Positions 19,071 through 31,648 of a stretch of DNA of 47,281 bases are shown in pieces. Made by a program: the position numbers and the translations under genes. Source of the DNA: a virus. Every line of letters begins with the position of its first letter. Position 1 is the first letter of the stretch. The stretch lies in the IMG/VR virus record IMGVR_UViG_3300027821_000010, positions 1 to 47,281 of that record. The stretch is one strand, 5' to 3'. A model generated the notes under the pieces. The model was not told where the DNA came from. It was given only the letters and a program-made list of their open reading frames with translations, and did no database searches.

Positions 19071-19706
19071 ATGCCTATTTACGATAAAAGTGTGGGCCCG
19101 AAAGAGGGCAAGAGTTCGATCAGCGGGAAAACACGGAAGCGAATTTTCGGGGGTGACAAGGGGATTGGAAGTTTTAACGACTGGCTCAATCAAGGTGGGG
19201 CCGGAGGTCCGGTCAGGACTGATGGGGGTAGGGAAGAATTTAACATAAATACAGCGCCACCGCAGTTGGACGTTACAAACCAGCTGTTTAATCCACAACA
19301 GATGTTGGGGAACATGTTCAATCCGCAGGCGCCGGGTGGCGGGCAGCAGTCTCCTGAGCAACAGACGCAGAACCTGAAGATGTTGATCGATTGGATGCGA
19401 GAGAGCCAGGCCACGGATATCAGGCAGAATCCAGAGAGGCTGTACCAGGCGGCGGCCCAAGCCTCGGACCCGGTGCGGTTTGCGCAGGAGCAGTATACGG
19501 CGAGGCAGGCGAGCGATCCGTGGGGACCGGGCGGACAGTTTGAAAAGAGCCCGAGGTTGTCGCCAGCAGCTGCACTTGCGAGTCAGGGGAACAACGCCAC
19601 AAACCAGTGGGCGCAGCTGGGCGGGGTGCCAGGAATTGATCCGGAGGAGCTGAAACGGCTGAATGCGGCTGCGGTGGCGGGAAGAGGGTATAGAAGTTAC
19701 TTCTGA
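19071..19706 (+). CDS. Hypothetical virion-region protein
   Basis: A 211-residue protein, preceded by AGAAAGGAA. It has a basic start (SISGKTRKRIFGGDKGIGSF), a Gln/Asn/Pro-rich middle and a helical end (GIDPEELKRLNAAAVAGRGY). Its stop shares its last base with the start of the giant protein. No family recognised. Confidence 0.6.
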   Translation: MPIYDKSVGPKEGKSSISGKTRKRIFGGDKGIGSFNDWLNQGGAGGPVRTDGGREEFNINTAPPQLDVTNQLFNPQQMLGNMFNPQAPGGGQQSPEQQTQNLKMLIDWMRESQATDIRQNPERLYQAAAQASDPVRFAQEQYTARQASDPWGPGGQFEKSPRLSPAAALASQGNNATNQWAQLGGVPGIDPEELKRLNAAAVAGRGYRSYF

Positions 19707-22700
19707 TGCTTGGCTACCGCCAGGTTAAGGACATGTACGATTCGCTCGCTAACGCGGGCGTCGTGACTAAGCCCTTGGCCGAGTGGAGTCAGGAGATGAA
19801 TGACTCCCTAGGCATCGATCTTTATTCGGAGGGCCTGAACGACAACTGGATCAAGCGGACCAGCGTGGGCATTGACCGGTTGCTCGAAATGACTGGGATT
19901 CCGCAGGCCGGCGAAGAGGTAGGGAGGAGCATCGGCGAAGCGGTCGGCAACCCTGAGGCCGGGGCGTCGATTGGCGGTGGCTTGGGTCGGATGGCCGTGA
20001 ACATGTTGCCGATGTTCATTCCCGGAGTGGGGTGGGGAGCGACCGCGGCAAGGCTTGGCGGGATGGCTGCGCTTAGTGGGGCAGAAGCCTATACCTCGAC
20101 AGGAAGCCCCACTGCTGGCGTTCTGGGGGCCGCTACGGCCGCCGCGATGCCAGGGGTGGCAAATTGGGCCGAACAAGCGGCTCTGAAGCGCCTGGGAGGT
20201 CGTTTGGTCGAAGGGGAGATACTCGGGGGCGGACCGGTTCAGCAAGCGGCAAGGATGGCCGCTGGCGAGGCTCCTGAGGCCATTAGTCGATATTTCCCCG
20301 AAACGATTTCGCAGGGCGTCCTAAGTCAAGGGGCGGGCCAGCTCGCGGCCGGAGGCTTAGGTGTAGGCACTCAGGTGGCCGAGCAAGTGGCCGCCGGCGA
20401 GCCGATCCACGTTTCCCCGACCGAACAGCTGCTTAACCTTACCCTCGGTCAGGCGCCCTTCGCTGCGGCTTACCTGACCAGGGGTGGTCGGGTGCCGTGG
20501 GGAGGCGCGGCCACGCGGAGTCATGTCGCCGAGCTTGAGAATGCGATCGAGCTGACCCGGGGTTTGAAGAATTTCAACGAGAACAAGCAGGAGATCAGCA
20601 ACAAGCCCGGGATGGCCGAGATCGTGGATCCGCCCGGCTCGACGGCGCAGGAAGGCGACGCTAACACAAGGATCAACGACATCCGGGCGCAGACCAAGGG
20701 ACTGGAGGAGGAGGGGAGCGCACTCGGGCAGGAGCGACAGGACAAGCTCACGGATCAGGAGAGTGCACTAGTGAAGCTGCAAGGGGCGCAGCCGGGCAAT
20801 ATCTTCGGGGCCCAGGTGATGCCCGATACCCCGCGCACCGAGGTCACCGGGACCGTTCTGCGCGAAAAGCCGGGCTATCGGTGGATCCAAGTCGCGGATG
20901 ATCCGCGCAATGGCGAACTCGCGGGCAAGCAAATTGGGTACGTTACGAAGGACGAGCCGGGGGTGAGGCCGGGTGAGTTGCCCGACACCCAGGTTTTTGG
21001 GGTCCCGCAAGGGCACTGGGCCGAGTTCTATCAGAAGGAGCTTAGCTCGGCGGCGGGCGATTTGGTGGCGCCCGGCGAATTTGATGCGGGAAGGGCGCTG
21101 GTCGAGGCGGATCAGGCAGTTGCCGCGGCCAAGAGCGGAGCGGATCTTCAGGGGGCGGTAGTGAAGCTCAACGGCGTTCGGGCGCACTATGGCGAGGCTC
21201 CTATCGACGATGTGGCCCTCGCTAATATTCTTGAGACCCGAAAAGTGGGCGATGAACGGGCCGCCATTCGGGCAGCGATCAATGATACCCGCCGGATGAT
21301 GGACGCGAACGAGGAAGCTGGGCTGCAAAACAAGCTCGTGGCCCAGCGCGATCAGGTGGTGCGGGATCTGGAGACCGCGCCCGATGAGGTGCGCGGCGAC
21401 CTGGAGGCGCAGCTCGGTGATTTGAACGCGAGGATCGACAAGGGTCACGAGCCCACGGTGAAGCCTCCGGTCGAACCGCCTCCGGAAGGCACGACGGCGA
21501 GTCAGCCGACGATGATCACCAAGAAAATGGAGCGTGACCTTAAGGCCAAGGGATTCACTGACGAGCAGATATACAAGATGACTCCAGTGGATGCCTGGAA
21601 CCATCTTAAAGCCGAAGGGGCGGAGCCGTCGAAACCGATCAGCTATGTGCCTTCTAAGCAGAGCGAGCAAACTGGTCAGGTGCCGGTGAGCGTCGATATC
21701 GCTAAGCTTGATGCCGCGCATGGGAAAGCGTTTCCCGAAGAGCGGGTGGGACCGGAAGCCGAAGGAGGCGATCGGGTGCGCTACGACCGATTTGCCAGGT
21801 GGGTTGACTCAGGGAAGCCGATGGAAATGCCGGTCATGACTCTCGACGCCGATGGTCAGCCGCGATTTTTCAGGGGCAGCACCCGTTTTGCGGTTATCCG
21901 GGATCGGGGGCATAAGACGATAGAAGTCACCGTGCCCGCGGAGCAGGCGGAAAAGTTCCGGGCGGCGTTTGGCGCAGAGGGCAAGCCTGGGGAGGCGATT
22001 GGCCGCGACACCATGGCTGATGTGGCCAAGATTGAGGAGGTGCCCCATGCCGATAGCCCGGCCACGGTCCCGCTGACCCAGTTGGAGGTCGAGAAGGCGA
22101 CGAGGATCACCCAGGGGACGCCGCACGTGGAGGACCAGCGCAAGTTCATCGATTTCGCTCAGGATGGGCTGGAGGCTTTCAAAAAGAAGTACGGGATGGA
22201 CCAGGCGGCCCTGGAAGCTTGGGTCCGGCAGCCCCATGTCGCCGAGTGGACCGGGAAGCTTGCCGATCAGATGGAGGTGCCGTATACCCCGCCGACCCAG
22301 AAGGTTGAGAAGGAGCGTGTGTTCGCTCCCGAGACGGAGCAGGATCTGGAATTCGCGAGGAGGGTTGGATCGAACGGGCGCGATTTGAACAACTCACTAA
22401 GTCAATCGCAGGACCCGGTGATCAGGGCGTTGGCGCAGGACTTGGCAAAGCATGAGGCGGCTCTGGGGGCGATCGACGTGCACTTGCGGGACATCGACAC
22501 CAGTTATGCTGATCGTGGCGATGATGGCCGGGCGGTGCTTAAGCTCCGGGCCAATTTGAGGCATGAGGATGCGCGCAATCAGGATTTCACGATGATGCAT
22601 GAGCTGCTTCACGGGTTGACCCTGCATGAGTTGGAGAATCCCGCGAATGCAGAGCACGTGACGGCGCTGGACGGTCTGAGGCAGCGAGTCATTGATTCCT

Positions 22701-25700
22701 TGCCCAAGAGCGTGCGTGGGGTGATGGAGGACATGCAGAAAACCGATTGGTATCGGCGCTACGGGGAAGGCGACGCGAAATGGGACGATTACAAACAGCA
22801 TTTGGGTGAGACCTCAGACGCCGACATGCACACGATTTATGGGCTCCTCAACAACGATGAGTTTATCAGCCAGGGACTGACTTCGCAGCCCTTCCGCGAC
22901 CAATTGGCGAAATTGAAGGCGCCGGACGGGACGAGCGTCTATAGCAAGTTTGTCGATTTCATTAAGAACGTCCTCGGGTTGCGGACGGAGGGGTCGGTGC
23001 TGGAGCAGTTGATGGGCCGCACCGATGACTTGATCGGTGCCAGGAATTTTCAGGCCACGGCGCGGGAATATGGCGAACGTTACTTTCAGAATCAGGGGCT
23101 GACTCCGAAGCTCGCGACGAAGCAGGCGGAGCGGGCGGTTGCGCTGATGCGGGGCGCCAACGAGGAGGCGATCCAGTGGATGGGGCTGCAAAAGGTCGAT
23201 ACCCCGGAAATGGTCAAGGCCTCTAAGGAGCTGCAGGAATTCATGGCCACTCCGCAGTCGGCGACGTCGAGGCAGGCGTTGGGCGAAATCGGGTATGATC
23301 CAAGCGAGGCGGCGATCACTCAGTTCGCGACGGACCTCGTGCTCGGCAAAGCGAAGGACGCAGACATGGCGCTGCGGGTGCTCGATCCGAAGGTGAGCGC
23401 GTATGTTTACGCGAAGGTCAGGGATTTGAGCGATCTTTTGGGCATGGTGGACAATGCTACCCGGCCAGAGGTTGGCGGCCGGGTAGGCATTGGTGATCCC
23501 GCGAAGATGAGGGAGTTCGCCGTCGGTTACCTTGATAACGCGAACAAAGCTCTGGACGCGGAGAGGCAGTTCGTCAAGGACACCACGGCGATCCAGGATT
23601 TGAACGGGGTGTCGCCGGCGGGATTTTTGGACAAATCGATGAGGCGACCCGAGCCGGGCCCAGCGGACCCGCCCGAGGTCGATACGCCGGCCAAAAAGTT
23701 GACGATGCTGGAGCGGATTTTTGCCACCCCGACGTATCTCGCGAAGGTCAGTCAGGAAGCTTCGGAATGGGTGAGCAGGAGCTTTCAGCTGGAAAGCAAC
23801 ATGAAGAAGATGAAGTTGACGGCCCTGCAGGCGCTCGGGATGGACGAGAAGGGCAAGTTCACCAAAGAATTCTTGAGAAGCCTGCAGGACCCGCAGGTTG
23901 AGAGGGCGGCCAGCAAGTGGATGTATCACAATTACGAGAAGGGCAAGGAGAGCGGCATCCAGATGCTGGGTAGGGACGACGCAGATGTGCGGCAAGTGCT
24001 CAATTCCGTGCCTGAGGGGAAACGGCAGGCAGTGGAGAATCTGGTGACGAGGCTGACGCAGGCTGGTCAGGTGAACATGGAGTCGATCATGAACAAGATG
24101 ACCGACGTGGCCCTGCTCAATGGGGCGATCAAGATCGCACCGGCCACCAAGCTCAAGGTGGCGCAGAACATGGAATTTTCAAAGCGGATGCTCGATATCG
24201 CGATGTCGGACATGAGCAATCCGCAGGTGCAGGCCGAGAATCAGGTGAAGCTCGCCGGCTTGCAGCAGGAACTCGGTCCAGTGGCTTTCGACGGCTTGCT
24301 GCAAGTCTCAAAAAACAGTGCCGAAATGCTCCAGAAGCAGCGGGCGTTCAACGAGGCTAATCCTGGGTGGACCACGATGCGCAAGTACGGGGCCTACGAC
24401 TTGGAATATCGGAAGGGTAACAAGACGCTTTTTGATAAGGTTAATAGCGAAAAGGAAGCCAAGCAGCTGGTGGCCGAGCGGGGTGGGCAGATCGTGCGAC
24501 TGGAGCGGAGCGGTGATGCCCCCGATCAGCCAGTGGATTTCGGGATTCCCGAGTTGCAGGCCCTCCAAGCCAGGCAAGCGGATTTGCTCAGGGATGCGAT
24601 GCCTCCGGATGCAGTGGCCGAAATGGTCGCCCGGACCGAACAACCGGGCTACGAGGATGCAAGCTTCGTGCGCAATCATATCGGGTGGATCGAGCAGAGC
24701 AGTTCGTATTGGACCAGGGAACTGTTCAGGACCCAGACCAGGGCGCTACGTAACGAGCCCGAGTTGCTGTCGCGGCCGGACATTCTGGAAATGATGGATA
24801 AGCATTCCCAGAACATGCTCAATCCGGATCCGGCGATCGCGGCGCAGGTGAGGCGAGTGCTTTCGACGTGGTATCTGGGGTTCACGCCGGCGACGGTGAT
24901 GATCAATGGAACCCAGATGCTGACCCGCGGGGCCACCGAGATGAGCAACCTGACCGGGAAGCCGATTGACTCCTTTCGGCGGGTGATCGGGGCCATGAAG
25001 GAGGCGACGGGACTAACAAAGCCCCCGACAGAGTTGGCGAAGGAGAGGGAGTGGCTCAACCGGCAGATCAAGGACGAGGGCATCGTGTCGGCTTTCAACG
25101 AGGGCGATCCGGGCAATGACGGGATGGAGGCCCTCCAGCAGGCGCTGGGCCGCGGCAGGGCGCAGAGCAAGGGGCAGCAACTCGACGGGATCCACAAGGC
25201 GATTAACCAAAAAGCGATGTGGATGTTCCAGCAGGTGGAGAAATTCAATAACAACGCGGCGATCACCGCGGCCTTCGACCTGCACATGGAACAGGACGGG
25301 GTGAGGCAGCTTAGCGGCAAAGCGTATGAGGATGCGCGGCAGGCGGCTTACGAGAAAGCTAAGGGATTCAACCAGACGGTCAATGATGTAGGCGGAAGGG
25401 CCAACCGGCCGATTTGGGCGTTTTCGGGCAAGGATGACATTTCGCGGAGTGCCGGGGTCCTCGCGATGTCGATGCAGACTTACAACGTTGGGACGATCAA
25501 CCAGATCGCGAACTACATCCGCAAAGGATTTTATGATCCAGCGGGCTTGAAGCCGGGCGAAAAGCATAATGCCCGGGTGGCGTTGGTGCAGCTCCTCGCG
25601 GTGCAGACGGCGCTCGCCGGGGCGCTGGGAGTGCCCTTTGCCGGAGCGGCGGTCGCCGGCATCAATCAGGTCTTTCCGGAGCTGGAGGTCAACAAGAACC

Positions 25701-26626
25701 TGAAGAAGTGGACGAACATGCTTTTTGCCGGGGATGCGGAGCAGGGCAACGTGATCTCCGATATCGCGATGAACGGGATCCCGAGCATGTTCGGGTGGGA
25801 TTTGAAGAGCCGGTTGAGCATGGGCAACCTGCTTCCGGGTATGAGCGAGTTCAATGGGTTTCATCCCGAGACGCTGGCGGGCCCAGCAGTCAATCTCGGG
25901 ACGCAGCTTTTCAAAGGCGTGGGTCAGGCGCTGACTGGGCAACCGGGCGAAGCGTTGATTACGCTGATGCCCCCCGTCGCCAAAAAGTTCGTTGGTCTGG
26001 CCGCAGACGGGTTCAAGGTCAGAGATTACAATGATCGGCCGGTGCTCGATCCGACGGGCGGAGAGATGGTTGGGATGGCGCTCGGATTCCAACCCAGCAG
26101 GTTGACCGAATGGAACACCATGCAGCGGGTCGCTCTCGGGGCCGAGAAGGTGGAAGCCCAGCGCAACAAGATGTTCACGCAAGGGCTGGCCAATCAGGCG
26201 CTGGAGGGCAAATTCGGGGATATCCGGCAGACCTTGCGCCAGAAAGTGCAGGAGGATCCCAACTTCAAGTGGGAGGACGCGGCGAGGTCGGCGGCCAGGG
26301 CTGCCGTGGAGCTTCAGTTCCCAAGGGACCTGAGGCGGGAGGGAAGCGGCTCGGAACAGTACGCCAAGACGCTGCGGATGTTCAATATGAACGTCAACTT
26401 GCCCACGGAAATGCAAAGGAAGCAATTTGAAGCGCAGGTGTTGCAAAACCTGGGGCTGCGGCCGGATCAAAGGAGCCTCAAGCGGGCACAGAGCGTGGAT
26501 GCGCTGCGGGCTCAGAATCCGCGGTTGACCCGGTATGAGCTGAATCGGCTGGCGGATGCGGCTGATCGTCGGCAGGGGTTGCCTCCGATGCCGGCGGCGG
26601 TGGGGGCGGCCGGTTCGCTTCCCTGA
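19706..26626 (+). CDS. Giant polyvalent internal-virion protein with zincin motif
   Basis: A 2306-residue protein, nearly 15% of the window. In order: Gly/Ala-rich hydrophobic segments near 96-160 (MAVNMLPMFIPGVGWGATAA); a helical region; a segment at about 659-745 reminiscent of ParB-like folds (RYDRFARWVDSG.., FFRGSTRFAVIRDRG); a metallopeptidase-like HELLHGLTLHE (His965-Glu966..His969); long helical parts; a large-polyvalent-protein-like domain around 1840-1945 (FQQVEKFNNNAAITAAFDLH, SMQTYNVGTINQIANYI); a hydrophobic segment about 1956-1987; and a helical C-terminus. Such proteins are thought to be ejected with phage DNA to cross the envelope and protect the genome. The domain calls are motif-level. 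Its last 149 bases overlap the opposite-strand helicase gene. Confidence 0.7.
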   Translation: MLGYRQVKDMYDSLANAGVVTKPLAEWSQEMNDSLGIDLYSEGLNDNWIKRTSVGIDRLLEMTGIPQAGEEVGRSIGEAVGNPEAGASIGGGLGRMAVNMLPMFIPGVGWGATAARLGGMAALSGAEAYTSTGSPTAGVLGAATAAAMPGVANWAEQAALKRLGGRLVEGEILGGGPVQQAARMAAGEAPEAISRYFPETISQGVLSQGAGQLAAGGLGVGTQVAEQVAAGEPIHVSPTEQLLNLTLGQAPFAAAYLTRGGRVPWGGAATRSHVAELENAIELTRGLKNFNENKQEISNKPGMAEIVDPPGSTAQEGDANTRINDIRAQTKGLEEEGSALGQERQDKLTDQESALVKLQGAQPGNIFGAQVMPDTPRTEVTGTVLREKPGYRWIQVADDPRNGELAGKQIGYVTKDEPGVRPGELPDTQVFGVPQGHWAEFYQKELSSAAGDLVAPGEFDAGRALVEADQAVAAAKSGADLQGAVVKLNGVRAHYGEAPIDDVALANILETRKVGDERAAIRAAINDTRRMMDANEEAGLQNKLVAQRDQVVRDLETAPDEVRGDLEAQLGDLNARIDKGHEPTVKPPVEPPPEGTTASQPTMITKKMERDLKAKGFTDEQIYKMTPVDAWNHLKAEGAEPSKPISYVPSKQSEQTGQVPVSVDIAKLDAAHGKAFPEERVGPEAEGGDRVRYDRFARWVDSGKPMEMPVMTLDADGQPRFFRGSTRFAVIRDRGHKTIEVTVPAEQAEKFRAAFGAEGKPGEAIGRDTMADVAKIEEVPHADSPATVPLTQLEVEKATRITQGTPHVEDQRKFIDFAQDGLEAFKKKYGMDQAALEAWVRQPHVAEWTGKLADQMEVPYTPPTQKVEKERVFAPETEQDLEFARRVGSNGRDLNNSLSQSQDPVIRALAQDLAKHEAALGAIDVHLRDIDTSYADRGDDGRAVLKLRANLRHEDARNQDFTMMHELLHGLTLHELENPANAEHVTALDGLRQRVIDSLPKSVRGVMEDMQKTDWYRRYGEGDAKWDDYKQHLGETSDADMHTIYGLLNNDEFISQGLTSQPFRDQLAKLKAPDGTSVYSKFVDFIKNVLGLRTEGSVLEQLMGRTDDLIGARNFQATAREYGERYFQNQGLTPKLATKQAERAVALMRGANEEAIQWMGLQKVDTPEMVKASKELQEFMATPQSATSRQALGEIGYDPSEAAITQFATDLVLGKAKDADMALRVLDPKVSAYVYAKVRDLSDLLGMVDNATRPEVGGRVGIGDPAKMREFAVGYLDNANKALDAERQFVKDTTAIQDLNGVSPAGFLDKSMRRPEPGPADPPEVDTPAKKLTMLERIFATPTYLAKVSQEASEWVSRSFQLESNMKKMKLTALQALGMDEKGKFTKEFLRSLQDPQVERAASKWMYHNYEKGKESGIQMLGRDDADVRQVLNSVPEGKRQAVENLVTRLTQAGQVNMESIMNKMTDVALLNGAIKIAPATKLKVAQNMEFSKRMLDIAMSDMSNPQVQAENQVKLAGLQQELGPVAFDGLLQVSKNSAEMLQKQRAFNEANPGWTTMRKYGAYDLEYRKGNKTLFDKVNSEKEAKQLVAERGGQIVRLERSGDAPDQPVDFGIPELQALQARQADLLRDAMPPDAVAEMVARTEQPGYEDASFVRNHIGWIEQSSSYWTRELFRTQTRALRNEPELLSRPDILEMMDKHSQNMLNPDPAIAAQVRRVLSTWYLGFTPATVMINGTQMLTRGATEMSNLTGKPIDSFRRVIGAMKEATGLTKPPTELAKEREWLNRQIKDEGIVSAFNEGDPGNDGMEALQQALGRGRAQSKGQQLDGIHKAINQKAMWMFQQVEKFNNNAAITAAFDLHMEQDGVRQLSGKAYEDARQAAYEKAKGFNQTVNDVGGRANRPIWAFSGKDDISRSAGVLAMSMQTYNVGTINQIANYIRKGFYDPAGLKPGEKHNARVALVQLLAVQTALAGALGVPFAGAAVAGINQVFPELEVNKNLKKWTNMLFAGDAEQGNVISDIAMNGIPSMFGWDLKSRLSMGNLLPGMSEFNGFHPETLAGPAVNLGTQLFKGVGQALTGQPGEALITLMPPVAKKFVGLAADGFKVRDYNDRPVLDPTGGEMVGMALGFQPSRLTEWNTMQRVALGAEKVEAQRNKMFTQGLANQALEGKFGDIRQTLRQKVQEDPNFKWEDAARSAARAAVELQFPRDLRREGSGSEQYAKTLRMFNMNVNLPTEMQRKQFEAQVLQNLGLRPDQRSLKRAQSVDALRAQNPRLTRYELNRLADAADRRQGLPPMPAAVGAAGSLP

Positions 26627-27845
26627 AGACGGTCATGACGTGCGGGGTGCCGATGTAGGTCATCACGGATCCGTTTGAGGCGACATTCATGGTCGCCGCT
26701 TCACCCTGGCTCACGAGATGAGTGACGCAGACCGTAAAGTCGTTGGGCGGCTTGCACTCATTGAAAAAACTGTTCTGAAGGATCCGGATCGGAAGAGCGC
26801 GTTCCTGTTGGCGCAGGTAGGTCGAGATTTTCACCGCCACGCCGGCCAGCTCGTTGCGGCCGGCGCCCCCGAAAATGCCGTAGAGGGACTCTTCCATCTT
26901 GCCCAGGAAATCCAGGGCAATGTCGAGGTGCAGGGGGAGAATTTCGAGGTCGTGGCTGAAGCTCAGGGAAGTGAGCATGCTAAGCTTCAGGACTTGCATG
27001 GGCTTGGAAGTCAACCAGGAGCGCATGTGGGCGGGTGCCTTGGGGCAATTGCGGCTGTGCTCGATGTACCACGCACTGTAGTGGTCTTTGGTCCGCTGGG
27101 GCATCAGGAACGCGCCGGTCAGGTTCTGGAGGGAGCGGCACTGGTGAATAATGCTCTCGCGAAGGGCGGTCTTCTGGGGGCCTCCCGGCGGGAAAGGGCA
27201 GGGCTGATCGAAGCGGCGCTCGCCATATTGGAAAATAGAGCGGCGGGCAAATCCTGATTGGATGATCCGGCCTTTGACCATGTCGAAGCTGGTCTCGGTG
27301 GTGAGAGCGCCGAAGAGGACGAAATAGGGCCCGTGGATCATGTCCTCGCCCTTGCTCTTGGTATAGTAGCCGAATTTCTTGTCGGTGTCGTAGATGTCAT
27401 TGAGCAGGTGAATCCAGTTCTCGGGCGCCTTGTTGATGAAGTTGACGAATTCGTTGGCGATGATCGTGATCGGGGTGACCTGGGCCACGGCGCCGTGCGG
27501 GTGCCGAGTGTCGAAGGCCCCCTCGAAAAGTTCAGGGGGGTCAGCGTCAGGGTAGCCGGACATCCGGCTCAAGAGGCCCTCGGGGGTTTCGATCGAGTGC
27601 GCCAGGGGAATGTTTTCGATATCGACCAACAGGTCCCGGACCTCGTTGAGGGCCACCGATTTTCCGTTGCCGGCGTCCCCCACTAGCATGGCGTAGATGT
27701 TGGCGTAGATCGGGTCCCGGCCGTGGATGAGCCAGACGCGGCGGCTGACCGAAGAGGAGATGAGGACGTAAGCGCCCCAGACATTAAAGAGTTCCGGCAC
27801 CTCGGTGCCTTTGGTCAGCTCGATATAGTCATGGAGGATACTCAC
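26478..27845 (-). CDS. DUF3987-like replicative helicase / P-loop ATPase (GTG start)
   Basis: A 455-residue protein from GTG 27845 (GTGA overlap with the gene before). The start matches phage DUF3987/primase-helicase proteins (FNVWGAYVLISSSVSRRVWL, then YANIYAMLVGDAGNGKSVAL with Walker A 56-63). A probable Walker B strand is ITIIANEF, with Asn-Glu in place of Asp-Glu. Family members are replicative helicase-like ATPases. No primase active site is present. The last 49 residues are a Pro/Ser/Ala-rich tail (PPPPPPASEATPADD) encoded wholly opposite the end of the giant virion gene, so the tail may be a by-product of the overlap. Last gene of the early operon. Confidence 0.75.
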   Translation of the reverse strand: MSILHDYIELTKGTEVPELFNVWGAYVLISSSVSRRVWLIHGRDPIYANIYAMLVGDAGNGKSVALNEVRDLLVDIENIPLAHSIETPEGLLSRMSGYPDADPPELFEGAFDTRHPHGAVAQVTPITIIANEFVNFINKAPENWIHLLNDIYDTDKKFGYYTKSKGEDMIHGPYFVLFGALTTETSFDMVKGRIIQSGFARRSIFQYGERRFDQPCPFPPGGPQKTALRESIIHQCRSLQNLTGAFLMPQRTKDHYSAWYIEHSRNCPKAPAHMRSWLTSKPMQVLKLSMLTSLSFSHDLEILPLHLDIALDFLGKMEESLYGIFGGAGRNELAGVAVKISTYLRQQERALPIRILQNSFFNECKPPNDFTVCVTHLVSQGEAATMNVASNGSVMTYIGTPHVMTVFREANRPPPPPPASEATPADDQPHPPADSAHTGSTADSEPAAHPRSVPA

Positions 27846-28012
27846 CGGTCCTTGGCCAGGCGGAAAAAGTGATAGATGGAGAAGAGGCGGTCAACGTTGT
27901 GCTCTTCGTCGTGTTCAAGCTGCTCACGGACCTGCTGGGTCGTCAGACCGCGGATGAGCTGCAGGATCGCGTCCACGCTCATCGGGTCTTCGCTGGGTAG
28001 TTCTACTTTCAT
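27842..28012 (-). CDS. Small acidic hypothetical protein
   Basis: A 56-residue protein starting at ATG 28012 inside the 3' end of the ligase-like gene (89-nt overlap) and ending in a GTGA overlap with the helicase. It is helical and charged (VDAILQLIRGLTTQQVREQL). No family recognised. Translational coupling with both neighbours is evident. Confidence 0.7.
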   Translation of the reverse strand: MKVELPSEDPMSVDAILQLIRGLTTQQVREQLEHDEEHNVDRLFSIYHFFRLAKDR

Positions 28013-28508
28013 GGAGGAGGTGCATGCTGAGGCCGGGGACGTAAGGTCCATCCCCCAGCCGATAGATAACGCCACTATAGTCGGCCCACTTGCCCCGGTA
28101 ATAGGGAAGGCTTTCCCCGGAGTTCAGTCGGTGGGTCTCGACCACATGGGTTTTGTGAAGGTATTGGGTATCGGTCAAAATGCTCGCCGGGGCCATGAAC
28201 CGGGAGGCGAAGGGCCGGTGGAAATCCACGACGTCGAAAACGTGGTACTCGACGTCTTCGCAGTCAACGGCGATGGCCCGCTCGATCTCTTCGATCGGCC
28301 ACCCGTGAACGTAGAGGGCACCGTCCAGGATGATCGCGGCGTCGAAAATTTTGCTCAAGGGCTCGGTGAGGTGCCGCAGGCTGCCGGAGTTCTGCGATTG
28401 AAAGTGACCGAGTTGGTAGAGGGCGCGGATGCCGGCCAGGCGGGGCTGGATGAAGCAGGGGTAGGTGAGCCTTTTGGGCGATAGTGGCAACGAACGCATC
28501 GGTTTCAT
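27924..28508 (-). CDS. DNA-ligase-fold protein with all catalytic residues replaced
   Basis: A 194-residue protein starting at ATG 28508 (ATGA overlap with the membrane peptide). It follows the nucleotidyltransferase core of ATP-dependent DNA ligases motif by motif, but each catalytic position differs. Motif I is PRLAGIR (Arg23, Ala25) where active enzymes have PKLDGIR. Motif III is ILDGALY (Ala64) for DGE. Motif IIIa YHVFDV (88-93) is kept. Motif IV is YSGVIYR (Ser145) for EG. The motif V region is HLLHES for LLK-K. No OB-fold domain follows. It lies between polymerase and helicase, where a ligase would be expected. It should be unable to form the enzyme-AMP bond; a structural, nick-binding or regulatory role is inferred. 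The fold assignment is by eye. Confidence 0.68.
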   Translation of the reverse strand: MKPMRSLPLSPKRLTYPCFIQPRLAGIRALYQLGHFQSQNSGSLRHLTEPLSKIFDAAIILDGALYVHGWPIEEIERAIAVDCEDVEYHVFDVVDFHRPFASRFMAPASILTDTQYLHKTHVVETHRLNSGESLPYYRGKWADYSGVIYRLGDGPYVPGLSMHLLHESRTTQRRPDERGRDPAAHPRSDDPAGP

Positions 28509-28579
28509 AGCGGTAACATCGAGAGGAGCCAATAAACGAGCAGGCCAATCAGAAAGCCGTAGATGAAATACTGAGTCAT
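28505..28579 (-). CDS. 24-residue membrane peptide
   Basis: A 24-residue frame, ATG 28579 to TGA 28505. Almost all of it is one hydrophobic helix (MTQYFIYGFLIGLLVYWLLS). Its stop overlaps the start of the ligase-like gene (ATGA), and it begins 8 bases after the preceding stop, so it fills an otherwise empty gap in a fully packed operon. Reality rests on this packing and the clean transmembrane composition. Function unknown. Confidence 0.6.
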   Translation of the reverse strand: MTQYFIYGFLIGLLVYWLLSMLPL

Positions 28580-28587
28580 GGCCGTGT

Positions 28588-28692
28588 TCAGAACGCCACC
28601 AACCAGCAAAGTTCCCACAGCAGCCAGAAGCTGAAGATGAAGTAGAGGACCACGAATGCCCATTCAAGTGCTCGGCGGTGCTCAATCAGCAC
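28588..28692 (-). CDS. 34-residue membrane protein (GTG start)
   Basis: A 34-residue frame from GTG 28692, overlapping the end of the 47-residue gene upstream. Residues about 14-33 form one hydrophobic, aromatic-rich helix (FVVLYFIFSFWLLWELCWLV) after a short charged start (LIEHRRALEWA). A longer frame reaching back to 28818 exists, but its N-terminal part is antisense-like and overlaps the better gene. Function unknown. Confidence 0.5.
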   Translation of the reverse strand: MLIEHRRALEWAFVVLYFIFSFWLLWELCWLVAF

Positions 28693-28825
28693 GGCGAATA
28701 ATTTTGCGGTTCTCTTCGCGTTTTTCCTGGGCGAGCTGGAGGCAATAGGCGGCGAGGTCGCAGAGCTGGGACCAGCTAAGGGTGTTGAGCCAAAGGATGA
28801 ATTTGCGGATTTCATCATTGGTCAT
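28682..28825 (-). CDS. 47-residue helical protein
   Basis: A 47-residue frame, ATG 28825 (ATGA overlap with the gene before) to TGA 28682. It is a strongly amphipathic, charged helix (MTNDEIRKFILWLNTLSWSQ, later LAQEKREENRKIIRRAD). The coupled start, natural composition and exact filling of the gap support it over the longer frame on the same strand. No family recognised. Confidence 0.65.
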   Translation of the reverse strand: MTNDEIRKFILWLNTLSWSQLCDLAAYCLQLAQEKREENRKIIRRAD

Positions 28826-29076
28826 GGGCGGAAGGTGACGCCCACTTTGCTTAAGGCCCGCTGGACGGCCTGGAAGGGAGTCACGCCCGCCGCCGACTCG
28901 CTGGAGGCATCGTTGACCCGAAGGATGACCGCTTGGTAGTAGTGGCCGACGACCAACTCATCGGCGGTGGCGTTCTGCCGGAGCAGATTAATGAGTTCAA
29001 ATTCGTCATTGGCGCCTTTCCGGATCAGCCGGCCGACATAGCGGTTGGTGACTTGCTGGGGCAGGGTACTGTTCAT
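28822..29076 (-). CDS. Small hypothetical protein
   Basis: An 84-residue protein. ATG 29076 lies 4 bases after the preceding stop; ATG 29097 is an in-frame alternative that would overlap that gene. Segments such as NRYVGRLIRKGANDEFELIN and LVVGHYYQAVILRVND look like a small folded domain. No family recognised; it sits just downstream of the polymerase. Confidence 0.65.
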   Translation of the reverse strand: MNSTLPQQVTNRYVGRLIRKGANDEFELINLLRQNATADELVVGHYYQAVILRVNDASSESAAGVTPFQAVQRALSKVGVTFRP

Positions 29077-29080
29077 AAGG

Positions 29081-29185
29081 TTACCAGGTGTGGTCATCGG
29101 CGGGGTCCACGGCGGGCAGGATGATGTAGGTGCGCCGGCGGCGACGAAGAAGTCGGCGAAAAATGCGCATGAGGAGGGCTTTCAT
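29081..29185 (-). CDS. 34-residue Arg-rich peptide
   Basis: A 34-residue frame whose ATG (29185) directly follows the polymerase stop and whose TAA is 4 bases before the next gene. It contains a block of basic residues (MRIFRRLLRRRRRTYIILPA) and an acidic end. Tight packing supports it; nucleic-acid or protein binding is a guess from charge. Confidence 0.5.
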   Translation of the reverse strand: MKALLMRIFRRLLRRRRRTYIILPAVDPADDHTW

Positions 29186-31648
29186 TCATATCTTGCTAGC
29201 GCACTCGCCCCAGGAGGGGCCGTAGGCGCCATCAAAAGGGATCTTCACCTCCCGGCCGGCGATCGAGAGGGTGTTGTCGAAATAGGAGCGGACCTTGGCA
29301 CGAGCCCAGTCCCGGTGGTCGCGAGGCCATTGGCCACACAAGGCGTCGTGCACTTGGTGCAGCGGCTCGATGATTAGGGATCCATCCGGACGCCGATTCT
29401 CCGGATCATTCCACAGTTTGAGCATCGCCAGGCTGGTGGCCCAGGTGGTGTTGGACTGGGGTTCGTGCGCAAGGAATTCTTTCACCGTGTCATGCATCGC
29501 CGGGCCAAAGCGCCGGCCGAAAAAGAGGCGGCACTGGCCCGAGGCCGAGGCAAGCTTAGCATCGGCCACCAGTTTGGATTCAGCCCAGCGATGCCAGGTC
29601 AAGATTCCGGGGTAGCGGGTGAACATTAGGTTCTGCAGGTTCTTGGCCACGGACTGCTCCATGTAAATCGGGGTCCCGGATTCCTTGAAGCTGTCCCGAA
29701 GGATGTTCGCGCACATGGTTGGGATCCCCATCATGTAGGAGCTACCGTGTTGGACGCGTTTGCAGCCCAGGTAGAGCCACTTGCCGGCGAGTTGGATGAC
29801 AATCGGGAAAACGTGGTCGTGGAGCCATTTGAGCTCCTCGCGGTCGAAATCGTTGACGGCGGGCCCGAGCCAATACATGAGGGCGATCAGCTTGGCGGGC
29901 TTCATCCCGGCCAGGTAGTCGAGCCACATGTTGGGGTCGCCTAGTCGATGACAGTGAGCAGCAACGGTCCACCCATCGGCGCCTTCAAGATCGCATTGAA
30001 AGAAATCGTGACCTTCATCGGCACAATAGTTGATCCGGAGGTCCTTCTGGATGGTTTGCAGATTTGCACCCGAACCTGTGGGCGACGTATAGCACTTAAC
30101 TCGGCCCGTCTCTGCTTCAAGAGAGTAGCCGCAACGGACTCGGCCGTCGTTATCAGCAGTGATTTGCAGAGTTTCTCGAACTCCTTCGAGGTGACGGTGT
30201 TTGAGGATATCGGAGAGGAATTCATCATTGGGGCGGGTGCGTTTGAGGGTCAGGATCGCGTCGATGTCGGAAGTGAGCTTGTCCGATTTGCGATTGCTCC
30301 CCGGCTCCCTGGCATACTGGGGGGCATAGCCCTTGTCGGTGTAGAGGGCGTCCATCAACTTATAAGGGGAGAGACTGCCCTTGGGACCGCGCAGTTCTTT
30401 GCCGGCGGAAGCGGCCAATCGCTCGCCCACGGGCTTGATCTGCTCGACGGTGTCGGCGAGCATCGCCTTGGCCCTGTCGCGGTCGTAGCGGATCCCGCGC
30501 AGCTCCATGTAAAGGAAGGGCGTTTGGAGCTCGATCATCCGGCGATAGTGGATGAGCGGAGGCCCGTGCAAGGCGGCATCTTGGGCGCAGCAGATTTCGA
30601 GGGTCACCGCCGAGTCCATGGCGCAGCCCCGGTAGAGCCCTTCGCCGACGTCGCCATACATCGAGTCATCCTTCCAATGGGGTTGGCGGGTCCACACGCT
30701 GGCCTGCGTCGCGAGGGAACGGCCCAACTCGGCATAGATCGACCAGCCCTTGATCAGGGTGTCCTCGGCCACGCCGCGGATCGGAATGCCTAGGCCGTAG
30801 CTAAGGACGAAATTGTCGTAAAGTTGGTTCTGGAGGACTTTGGGGACGTTGGCGCGGAACATCAGCCGACTGAAGCTTTGCAAGACTTGGGCATGTTCGG
30901 TTTCGCTGAAGCGGGACCAGACGATGCAAATCGAGCGGGTGGGGTCGCCGCAGATGCTCACGCACGGCCATCCATTGTGCAGGGTGCCTTCGATGTCCAC
31001 GGAGCACCGGCGGCCGCTCGGCCAATTGTCGAGGAGCCAGCAAAGCTCGCTAGCGTCGAGGTCGGTCTGCAAGTCGCGATGGGGCAATTGCAAAGCCGGG
31101 CTAGTGCCTTCCTCTCGCGCCCGCTTGAGATCGAATCTTAGCAAAGGGTAGCCGGCAAATTCCCGGAGGACATAAGCGGGATGAAGGGAGGGCAAGCATT
31201 TGCGGCCGTAGAAGGGCGCAGGAGGGCTTGCAAAGTCCGAGACGAAGAGGGAGCCCCGCCAGTCGCTAATCTTGGCAGGAGCGCCCACTGCGGCCCGAAG
31301 CGGGGTGTTCCCGAGGAGCACGCAAAGGTGGGGGTCGAAACGGGTGATGTCGCGGGCCAGCTCAGCCAGGCCGTCCTGGATCTCGGGGCCATCCCAATCG
31401 AAGAAGCCGATTTCGTTCAAAGGGGGGCGGTGCTGACAGATGTTGCCGATGAGGCAGGCTTGGCGGTTGATGTCCGCCTCGTTGCGCATGATGTTGCTCA
31501 AGAACTGACCGGAGGCGCCGACAAAGGGCCGGCGATAGTTCTCCTCGTCTTCGCCTGGAGCCTCGCCAATGACGGCGATCCGGTAATCGACGCCATCGAC
31601 GATGATCGGGTGCTCGTTGGGAACGAGCCGGCTAAGATTGGCGATCAT
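29186..31648 (-). CDS. Uracil-DNA glycosylase / 3'-5' exonuclease / family A DNA polymerase fusion
   Basis: An 820-residue three-part protein. (1) Residues 1-200: family 4/5-type uracil-DNA glycosylase, with motif GEAPGEDEENYRRPFVG (28-44) and the late HPAYVLR (156-162). (2) About 215-400: DnaQ-like proofreading exonuclease, with VDIEG, LQNQLYDNF and YRGCAMDSAV as Exo I-III. (3) About 420-820: family A polymerase, with motif A QCDLEGADGWT (Asp553), motif B KRVQHGSSYMMG (Lys630) and motif C QVHDALCG (Asp768). The usual DYSQIELR and HDE are replaced by CDLEGAD and HDA, a variant seen in a clade of phage polymerases. It is the replicative polymerase; the glycosylase part suggests uracil is removed or sensed during replication. 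Confidence 0.88.
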   Translation of the reverse strand: MIANLSRLVPNEHPIIVDGVDYRIAVIGEAPGEDEENYRRPFVGASGQFLSNIMRNEADINRQACLIGNICQHRPPLNEIGFFDWDGPEIQDGLAELARDITRFDPHLCVLLGNTPLRAAVGAPAKISDWRGSLFVSDFASPPAPFYGRKCLPSLHPAYVLREFAGYPLLRFDLKRAREEGTSPALQLPHRDLQTDLDASELCWLLDNWPSGRRCSVDIEGTLHNGWPCVSICGDPTRSICIVWSRFSETEHAQVLQSFSRLMFRANVPKVLQNQLYDNFVLSYGLGIPIRGVAEDTLIKGWSIYAELGRSLATQASVWTRQPHWKDDSMYGDVGEGLYRGCAMDSAVTLEICCAQDAALHGPPLIHYRRMIELQTPFLYMELRGIRYDRDRAKAMLADTVEQIKPVGERLAASAGKELRGPKGSLSPYKLMDALYTDKGYAPQYAREPGSNRKSDKLTSDIDAILTLKRTRPNDEFLSDILKHRHLEGVRETLQITADNDGRVRCGYSLEAETGRVKCYTSPTGSGANLQTIQKDLRINYCADEGHDFFQCDLEGADGWTVAAHCHRLGDPNMWLDYLAGMKPAKLIALMYWLGPAVNDFDREELKWLHDHVFPIVIQLAGKWLYLGCKRVQHGSSYMMGIPTMCANILRDSFKESGTPIYMEQSVAKNLQNLMFTRYPGILTWHRWAESKLVADAKLASASGQCRLFFGRRFGPAMHDTVKEFLAHEPQSNTTWATSLAMLKLWNDPENRRPDGSLIIEPLHQVHDALCGQWPRDHRDWARAKVRSYFDNTLSIAGREVKIPFDGAYGPSWGECASKI

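Follow-up and report, generated by a model that had tools for sequence, protein, structure and literature searches.

A phage gene descended from an ATP-dependent DNA ligase that has lost its catalytic residues and probably persists as a folded core

Why would the replication operon of a phage keep a gene that follows the fold of a DNA ligase and encodes none of the residues with which a ligase works? DNA ligases are textbook enzymes. Their non-enzymatic descendants are hardly described, and the open-access literature that we searched yielded no report of a pseudo-DNA-ligase or of a non-enzymatic ligase descendant. The gene that raises the question lies in a 47,281-base virus record, the whole of which was analyzed and is called the window here. 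An earlier note had placed the open reading frame at 27924-28508; the position stands, and we add as a correction that it is on the minus strand (coding 28508-27927, 194 aa).

A ligase core without its catalytic residues

In a profile search, residues 2-159 match the ATP-dependent DNA ligases of PHROG 114 (phrog_114, E 4.4e-14), and a sequence search of solved structures in the PDB finds the ASFV ligase (E 7e-5); a Pfam search of the protein gives no match. The core is 52.6% identical to a complete, catalytically intact ligase of 276 aa that a sister phage, L017, encodes at the corresponding locus. Together with a fold match described below, these results rule out chance resemblance, and comparison with relatives shows that the ancestral gene at this locus specified a complete ligase. 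The window copy shares its locus and its nucleotidyltransferase (NTase) core with the ligases of this phage group (L017, L005, L001 and others; phrog_114, PF01068) but, unlike them, has no motif I Lys, no motif III or motif IV Glu, no motif V and no OB domain.

Alignments locate each change on the minus strand. In motif I (QPRLAGIR, 28425-28448), Arg23 replaces the Lys found in all 46 active reference ligases, with codon CGC differing from the AAA of L017 at all three nucleotides, and Ala replaces Asn/Asp at residue 25. Gln stands for Arg39 (L017 R39) in the motif Ia region (FQSQNS, 28386-28403), Ala64 for the motif III Glu (LDGALY, 28311-28328; GCC vs GAG) and Ser145 for the motif IV Glu (SGVIYR, 28059-28076; AGT vs GAG, three nucleotides different). 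Motif IIIa (FD, 28233-28238) is kept. Of motif V a remnant persists (HLLHES, 28005-28022) in which, by alignment to WHLLKRKD of L017, HLL is kept and everything from KRK onward is deleted, leaving no K-x-K. The three catalytic losses and the HLLHES reading of the motif V region, its Lys gone, are as the earlier note had described them. Its count of Ala25 as a catalytic loss falls, because this column is not universal, being Asn or Asp in most active relatives and Ala in the active PBCV-1 ligase (K-I-A-G in the alignment). Sequencing or assembly error can be dismissed: each catalytic codon is off by two to three bases, and a second case, in phages L004 and L006, occurs in two records with 99.9% identity across 16.6 kb.

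The ligase-homologous part (28014-28508, minus) stops at about residue 165, and the OB domain is absent. The ATG of the next small gene (27842-28012, minus; 56 aa, MKVELPSEDPMSVDAILQ...), the counterpart of a 52-aa frame that follows the active L017 ligase, lies at 28012, directly after the core; the stretch that begins at KRK and includes the whole OB domain is missing. Codons 1-165 have position-specific GC values of 0.61/0.41/0.79, the pattern of the polymerase and primase/helicase genes; codons 166-194 have 0.79/0.69/0.35, which is the composition of the other frame. By this measure residues 166-194 (27927-28013) are an out-of-frame read through the start of the next gene, and predicted confidence (pLDDT) falls to ~40-55 from residue ~171. 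The proposal that the protein follows the ligase core thus holds up to residue ~165 and fails for the last ~29 residues.

The surrounding operon, all on the minus strand, runs from the polymerase through small genes, the pseudo-ligase and another small gene to the primase/helicase (26478-27845; phrog_14296, with DUF3987 below the Pfam cut-off), and in those relatives that we examined closely the ligase gene likewise sits between polymerase and primase/helicase. The polymerase (29186-31648) belongs to family A and carries a uracil-DNA-glycosylase domain at its N terminus (PF03167, E 1.9e-19, residues 21-163, with GEAPGEDE and HPAYVLRE motifs; PF00476, E 1.5e-4; phrog_17), a combination shared across a large phage family (~45-50 kb). 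A 91-aa small protein (28822-29097) is common to L017, L006 and L005 at the same place. Two short overlapping frames, both hydrophobic, occupy 28505-28818 (...EWAFVVLYFIFSFWLLWELCW and MTQYFIYGFLIGLLVYWLLSMLPL); the stop of the membrane-type peptide at 28505-28663 overlaps the start of the pseudo-ligase (ATGA), and the last ~29 codons of the pseudo-ligase frame lie over the next gene. The coupling to tiny membrane peptides suggested earlier thus has a basis in the gene arrangement of the window, but in relatives the gene preceding the ligase encodes no membrane peptide. A single frame of 2306 aa spans 19706-26626 on the other strand and converges with the operon; its counterpart in L017 has 1941 aa, and relatives also encode long proteins there.

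Active and dead copies at one locus

Searches of viral contigs, with the polymerase or the ligase as query, located well over 100 related loci. The first set comprised 50 distinct copies, of which 48 keep the motif I Lys and the motif III and motif IV Glu residues. With all scans pooled there are 84 distinct homologues, most of them in phages that share the polymerase family, and the three residues are lacking only in the window and L004/L006 copies (two truncated copies and one with an unresolved base, N, in motif IV being set aside); the patterns of the last scan, LYVHGWP and [TS][YF]PC[YHF][VI]QP, leave out the catalytic letters. Complete ligases occupy the same operon place in L017, L005, L001 and many other phages. 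The earlier note had named relatives that possess the Lys and Glu residues as evidence against its reading; among the homologues such relatives do exist, and the ancestor was active.

The second dead copy, in L004 and L006 (IMG/VR 3300005526_000034 and 3300027821_000004; polymerase 70% identical to that of the window), is syntenic, with a 172-aa open frame that carries QPYIKGPR, MLDGVF and HPGMIYR. It resembles the window copy in losing the same catalytic residues and the OB domain while retaining the scaffold and an intact frame, and differs from it in its replacements (Lys to Tyr, Glu to Val, Glu to Pro), in its internal deletions and in overall sequence (~30% identity). The same three residues are thus lost in both copies, but the substitutions themselves are not conserved, and the other relatives are intact. 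The dead form is known from two lineages with one sequence each, L004 and L006 being 99.9% identical.

Our scans found no near relative of the window's dead copy, which would show conservation within the pseudo form, and a search for further dead copies with a pattern based on QPRLAGIR returned four random matches. Scans of bacterial genomes gave no match with the ligase alignment and two matches with the polymerase alignment. The ‘hypothetical protein’ of Aeromonas phage vB_AceP_PAc, a top phage match (E 5e-6), was considered as a dead copy and proved to be an intact ligase. Several observations lie to the side of this survey. L082 (12378-13163) and L069 (11965-12768) encode divergent ligases of a separate lineage, in which Trp (KYDGWW) replaces a motif I Arg that is universal elsewhere, motif V reads R-x-K, and the Lys and both Glu residues are kept. 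L179 (PBOZ01000004.1), binned as a Rickettsiales MAG, has the same polymerase, at 39% identity, and a ligase that appears intact, which could be a hint of the host or reflect a misbinned phage contig. The best polymerase frames of L090 and L057 have 595 and 583 aa, vs ~800-900 in relatives, and a split gene, an intron or intein, or a frameshift could account for this.

Two separate inactivations are favored by the phylogenetic comparisons. In the 50-copy ligase tree the window copy pairs with the active L017 ligase (L007 in that tree; support 99/93), and none of the bootstrap trees joins the two dead copies. The primase/helicase, alone or concatenated with a polymerase fragment, also pairs the window with L017 and rejects a window-L006 pairing (AU test, p 0.027 and 0.017); the ligase alone cannot decide (p 0.23), and the polymerase fragment alone leans weakly toward window-L006. 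One older inactivation shared by both copies is a possible alternative, in which case the dead form would have been retained even longer and the active L017 copy would have been kept or regained by recombination. The L017 vs L006 comparison also contains a 236-base block (L017:1170-1405 vs L024:11032-11267) that is 92% identical between far more diverged flanking genes; it covers one small gene and stops within the first ligase codons, and this edge at the ligase start points to recent recombination there.

Retention or slow decay

The reading that we favor, and consider moderately likely, is that the gene is a pseudoenzyme derived from the phage group's own ATP-dependent DNA ligase whose folded NTase core is kept for binding, probably within the replisome. 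Its main rival is slow decay, which we regard as rather unlikely: the phage would rely on the host's ligase, and a dying gene with its OB domain deleted would have acquired no stop so far, its frame staying open by chance with help from the GC-rich sequence and the need to spare coupled translation downstream. Ligase is indeed dispensable in this group. Of 19 ligase-less members checked, 18 carry no ATP ligase anywhere in their record; clean gene loss is therefore available to these phages. In the records of the window and of L006 there is no PF01068 or PF01653 match, and phrog_114 finds the pseudo copy only; as neither an ATP- nor an NAD-dependent ligase turned up besides it in the record, the host ligase presumably seals the nicks. 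Experiments with T3 lacking its ligase indicate that the host enzyme can carry much of the load (PMC2696425).

Which residues were lost speaks against decay. Across 46 active ligases the invariant core columns comprise three catalytic and seven non-catalytic positions (G26, R28, D67, G68, D104, G160 and Y170 in L017 numbering), and each dead copy has lost all three of the former and none of the seven latter (Fisher 0.008 per lineage), a pattern whose pooled probability, computed by hand, is 1/C(20,6) = 2.6e-5 if the two copies are independent. Aligned sites at least 70% identical in the active set are lost or kept in parallel (7/2/4/20, Fisher 0.002): both copies have lost K23, N25, R39, E69, E159, K191, K193 and the LQxIN loop, and both keep P3, P17, QP, G26, R28, DG, FD, R115, G160, R164 and Y170. 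Codons 1-165 contain several in-frame indels and no stops or frameshifts, codon periodicity is at full strength and third-position GC is at the level of the neighboring genes. The earlier statement that the scaffold is kept and the frame intact is accordingly borne out across this core. Moreover, 8 of the 9 catalytic-codon bases in the window and 7 of 9 in L006 are unlike those of L017 (vs 39% and 51% overall), and such multiple hits imply a long time since inactivation; under a neutral model, the probability of changing the three residues without a stop among the aligned codons is at most 1.3e-2 (window) and 9e-3 (L006).

Other measures are what decay would predict. Constraint on the pseudo-ligase is clearly relaxed, judging by substitution patterns: the end branch of the window copy is 0.70 vs 0.093 for its sister's active ligase, about seven times faster, and in the most conserved quartile of sites 29% (window) and 40% (L004) have changed, vs 0-17% in active relatives. 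For the window, base composition by itself would leave the frame open with a probability of 1-3%, which is not negligible. In favor of retention, a codon model gives the window an omega of 1.07 relative to that of the helicase on the same branch (a ratio only, the synonymous sites being too saturated for an absolute dN/dS), so the pseudo-ligase evolves no faster than the neighboring primase/helicase. Taken fairly, these data suggest constraint on the fold and none on the enzymatic surface. Persistence of the NTase core as a folded protein after the loss of catalysis is supported by the sequence record of both the window and the L004/L006 lineages. The earlier claim of selection for a non-enzymatic function instead of decay gains from the syntenic second copy with the same losses, the kept scaffold, the absence of stops and the third-position GC, but the relaxed constraint means that slow decay survives as an explanation.

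A still less probable account, to which we give little credence, is that the gene is a spacer for translational coupling, its overlaps setting the translation of the small gene and the primase/helicase and its protein being irrelevant. The ATGA overlap upstream, common to active and dead copies, and the long 3' overlap fit this account, which explains an open frame but not the kept structural residues or the complete core; other members, moreover, have removed the gene entirely.

Possible roles of the retained core

AlphaFold2 gives confident models of the NTase core for both dead proteins (pLDDT 86 for the window, mostly at least 90 to residue 170, and 90 for L004), which, as the input alignments consist mostly of active ligases, show compatibility with the fold and not folding itself. 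The closest solved structures are the ASFV, PBCV-1 (Chlorella virus), T4 and T7 ligases (PDB 6imk, 2q2t, 6dt1 and 1a0i; TMq 0.65-0.74), alike in predicted core fold but all active enzymes of two domains or more. The prediction and the phrog_114 profile match thus both uphold the ligase core that the earlier note had recognized. The L004 model also matches Snurportin-1 (3gjx, E 2.4e-4). The cap-binding domain of Snurportin-1, reportedly the subject of work by Strasser et al. in 2005, has an NTase fold and binds a nucleotide (RNA) cap without catalysis; it differs in belonging to a eukaryotic nuclear-import adaptor with a known ligand, and its likeness to the pseudo-ligase is one of fold.

Lacking a nucleophile, the catalytic Glu residues, motif V and the OB domain, the window copy is excluded by its sequence from self-adenylation, nick clamping and sealing by the known mechanism; with its OB domain gone and no means of being adenylated, the protein is unlikely to clamp a nick. 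These considerations weigh on the idea of a competitor or dominant-negative protein, in which the dead core would bind nicks, the host ligase or its partners and block ligation, for instance so that an intermediate of replication or packaging stays open. The NTase surface is kept, and loss of catalysis is what such a role needs. We nonetheless think the idea very improbable, since the core lacks the two parts required for encircling DNA, motif V and the OB domain, the nick-contact Arg is gone in both copies and the net charges of the dead cores are -1 and 0, not positive, charge having proved uninformative as a guide to DNA binding. An altered chemistry with a shifted nucleophile is scarcely credible: in L004 a Tyr stands in for the Lys, with a Lys two residues later (QPYIKG), but the window has Arg and no Lys there, and both Glu residues and motif V are missing from both copies.

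We propose instead that a ligase lost catalysis, motif V and its OB domain, and that its core stayed as a binding module, the host's ligase sealing the phage's nicks. The core would hold a partner in the replication machinery, polymerase or primase/helicase, or a nucleic-acid or nucleotide ligand in the emptied pocket; because the gene sits between those of the polymerase and the primase/helicase, we infer that a replisome component is what the core most likely binds. More broadly, we tentatively suggest, at somewhat lower confidence, that within a single polymerase family of phages the replication-operon ligase was reduced, on more than one occasion, to a bare, non-catalytic NTase core with a structural or ligand-binding place in the replisome, which would make a class of phage pseudo-ligases. 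With 48 intact and two dead copies at one locus, these phages offer a natural experiment on which parts of a ligase are kept once ligation is lost. If the dead core is needed, it would caution against annotating such genes as ligase and would hint at a non-catalytic role, such as docking to the polymerase or primase/helicase, that phage ligases may have while still active.
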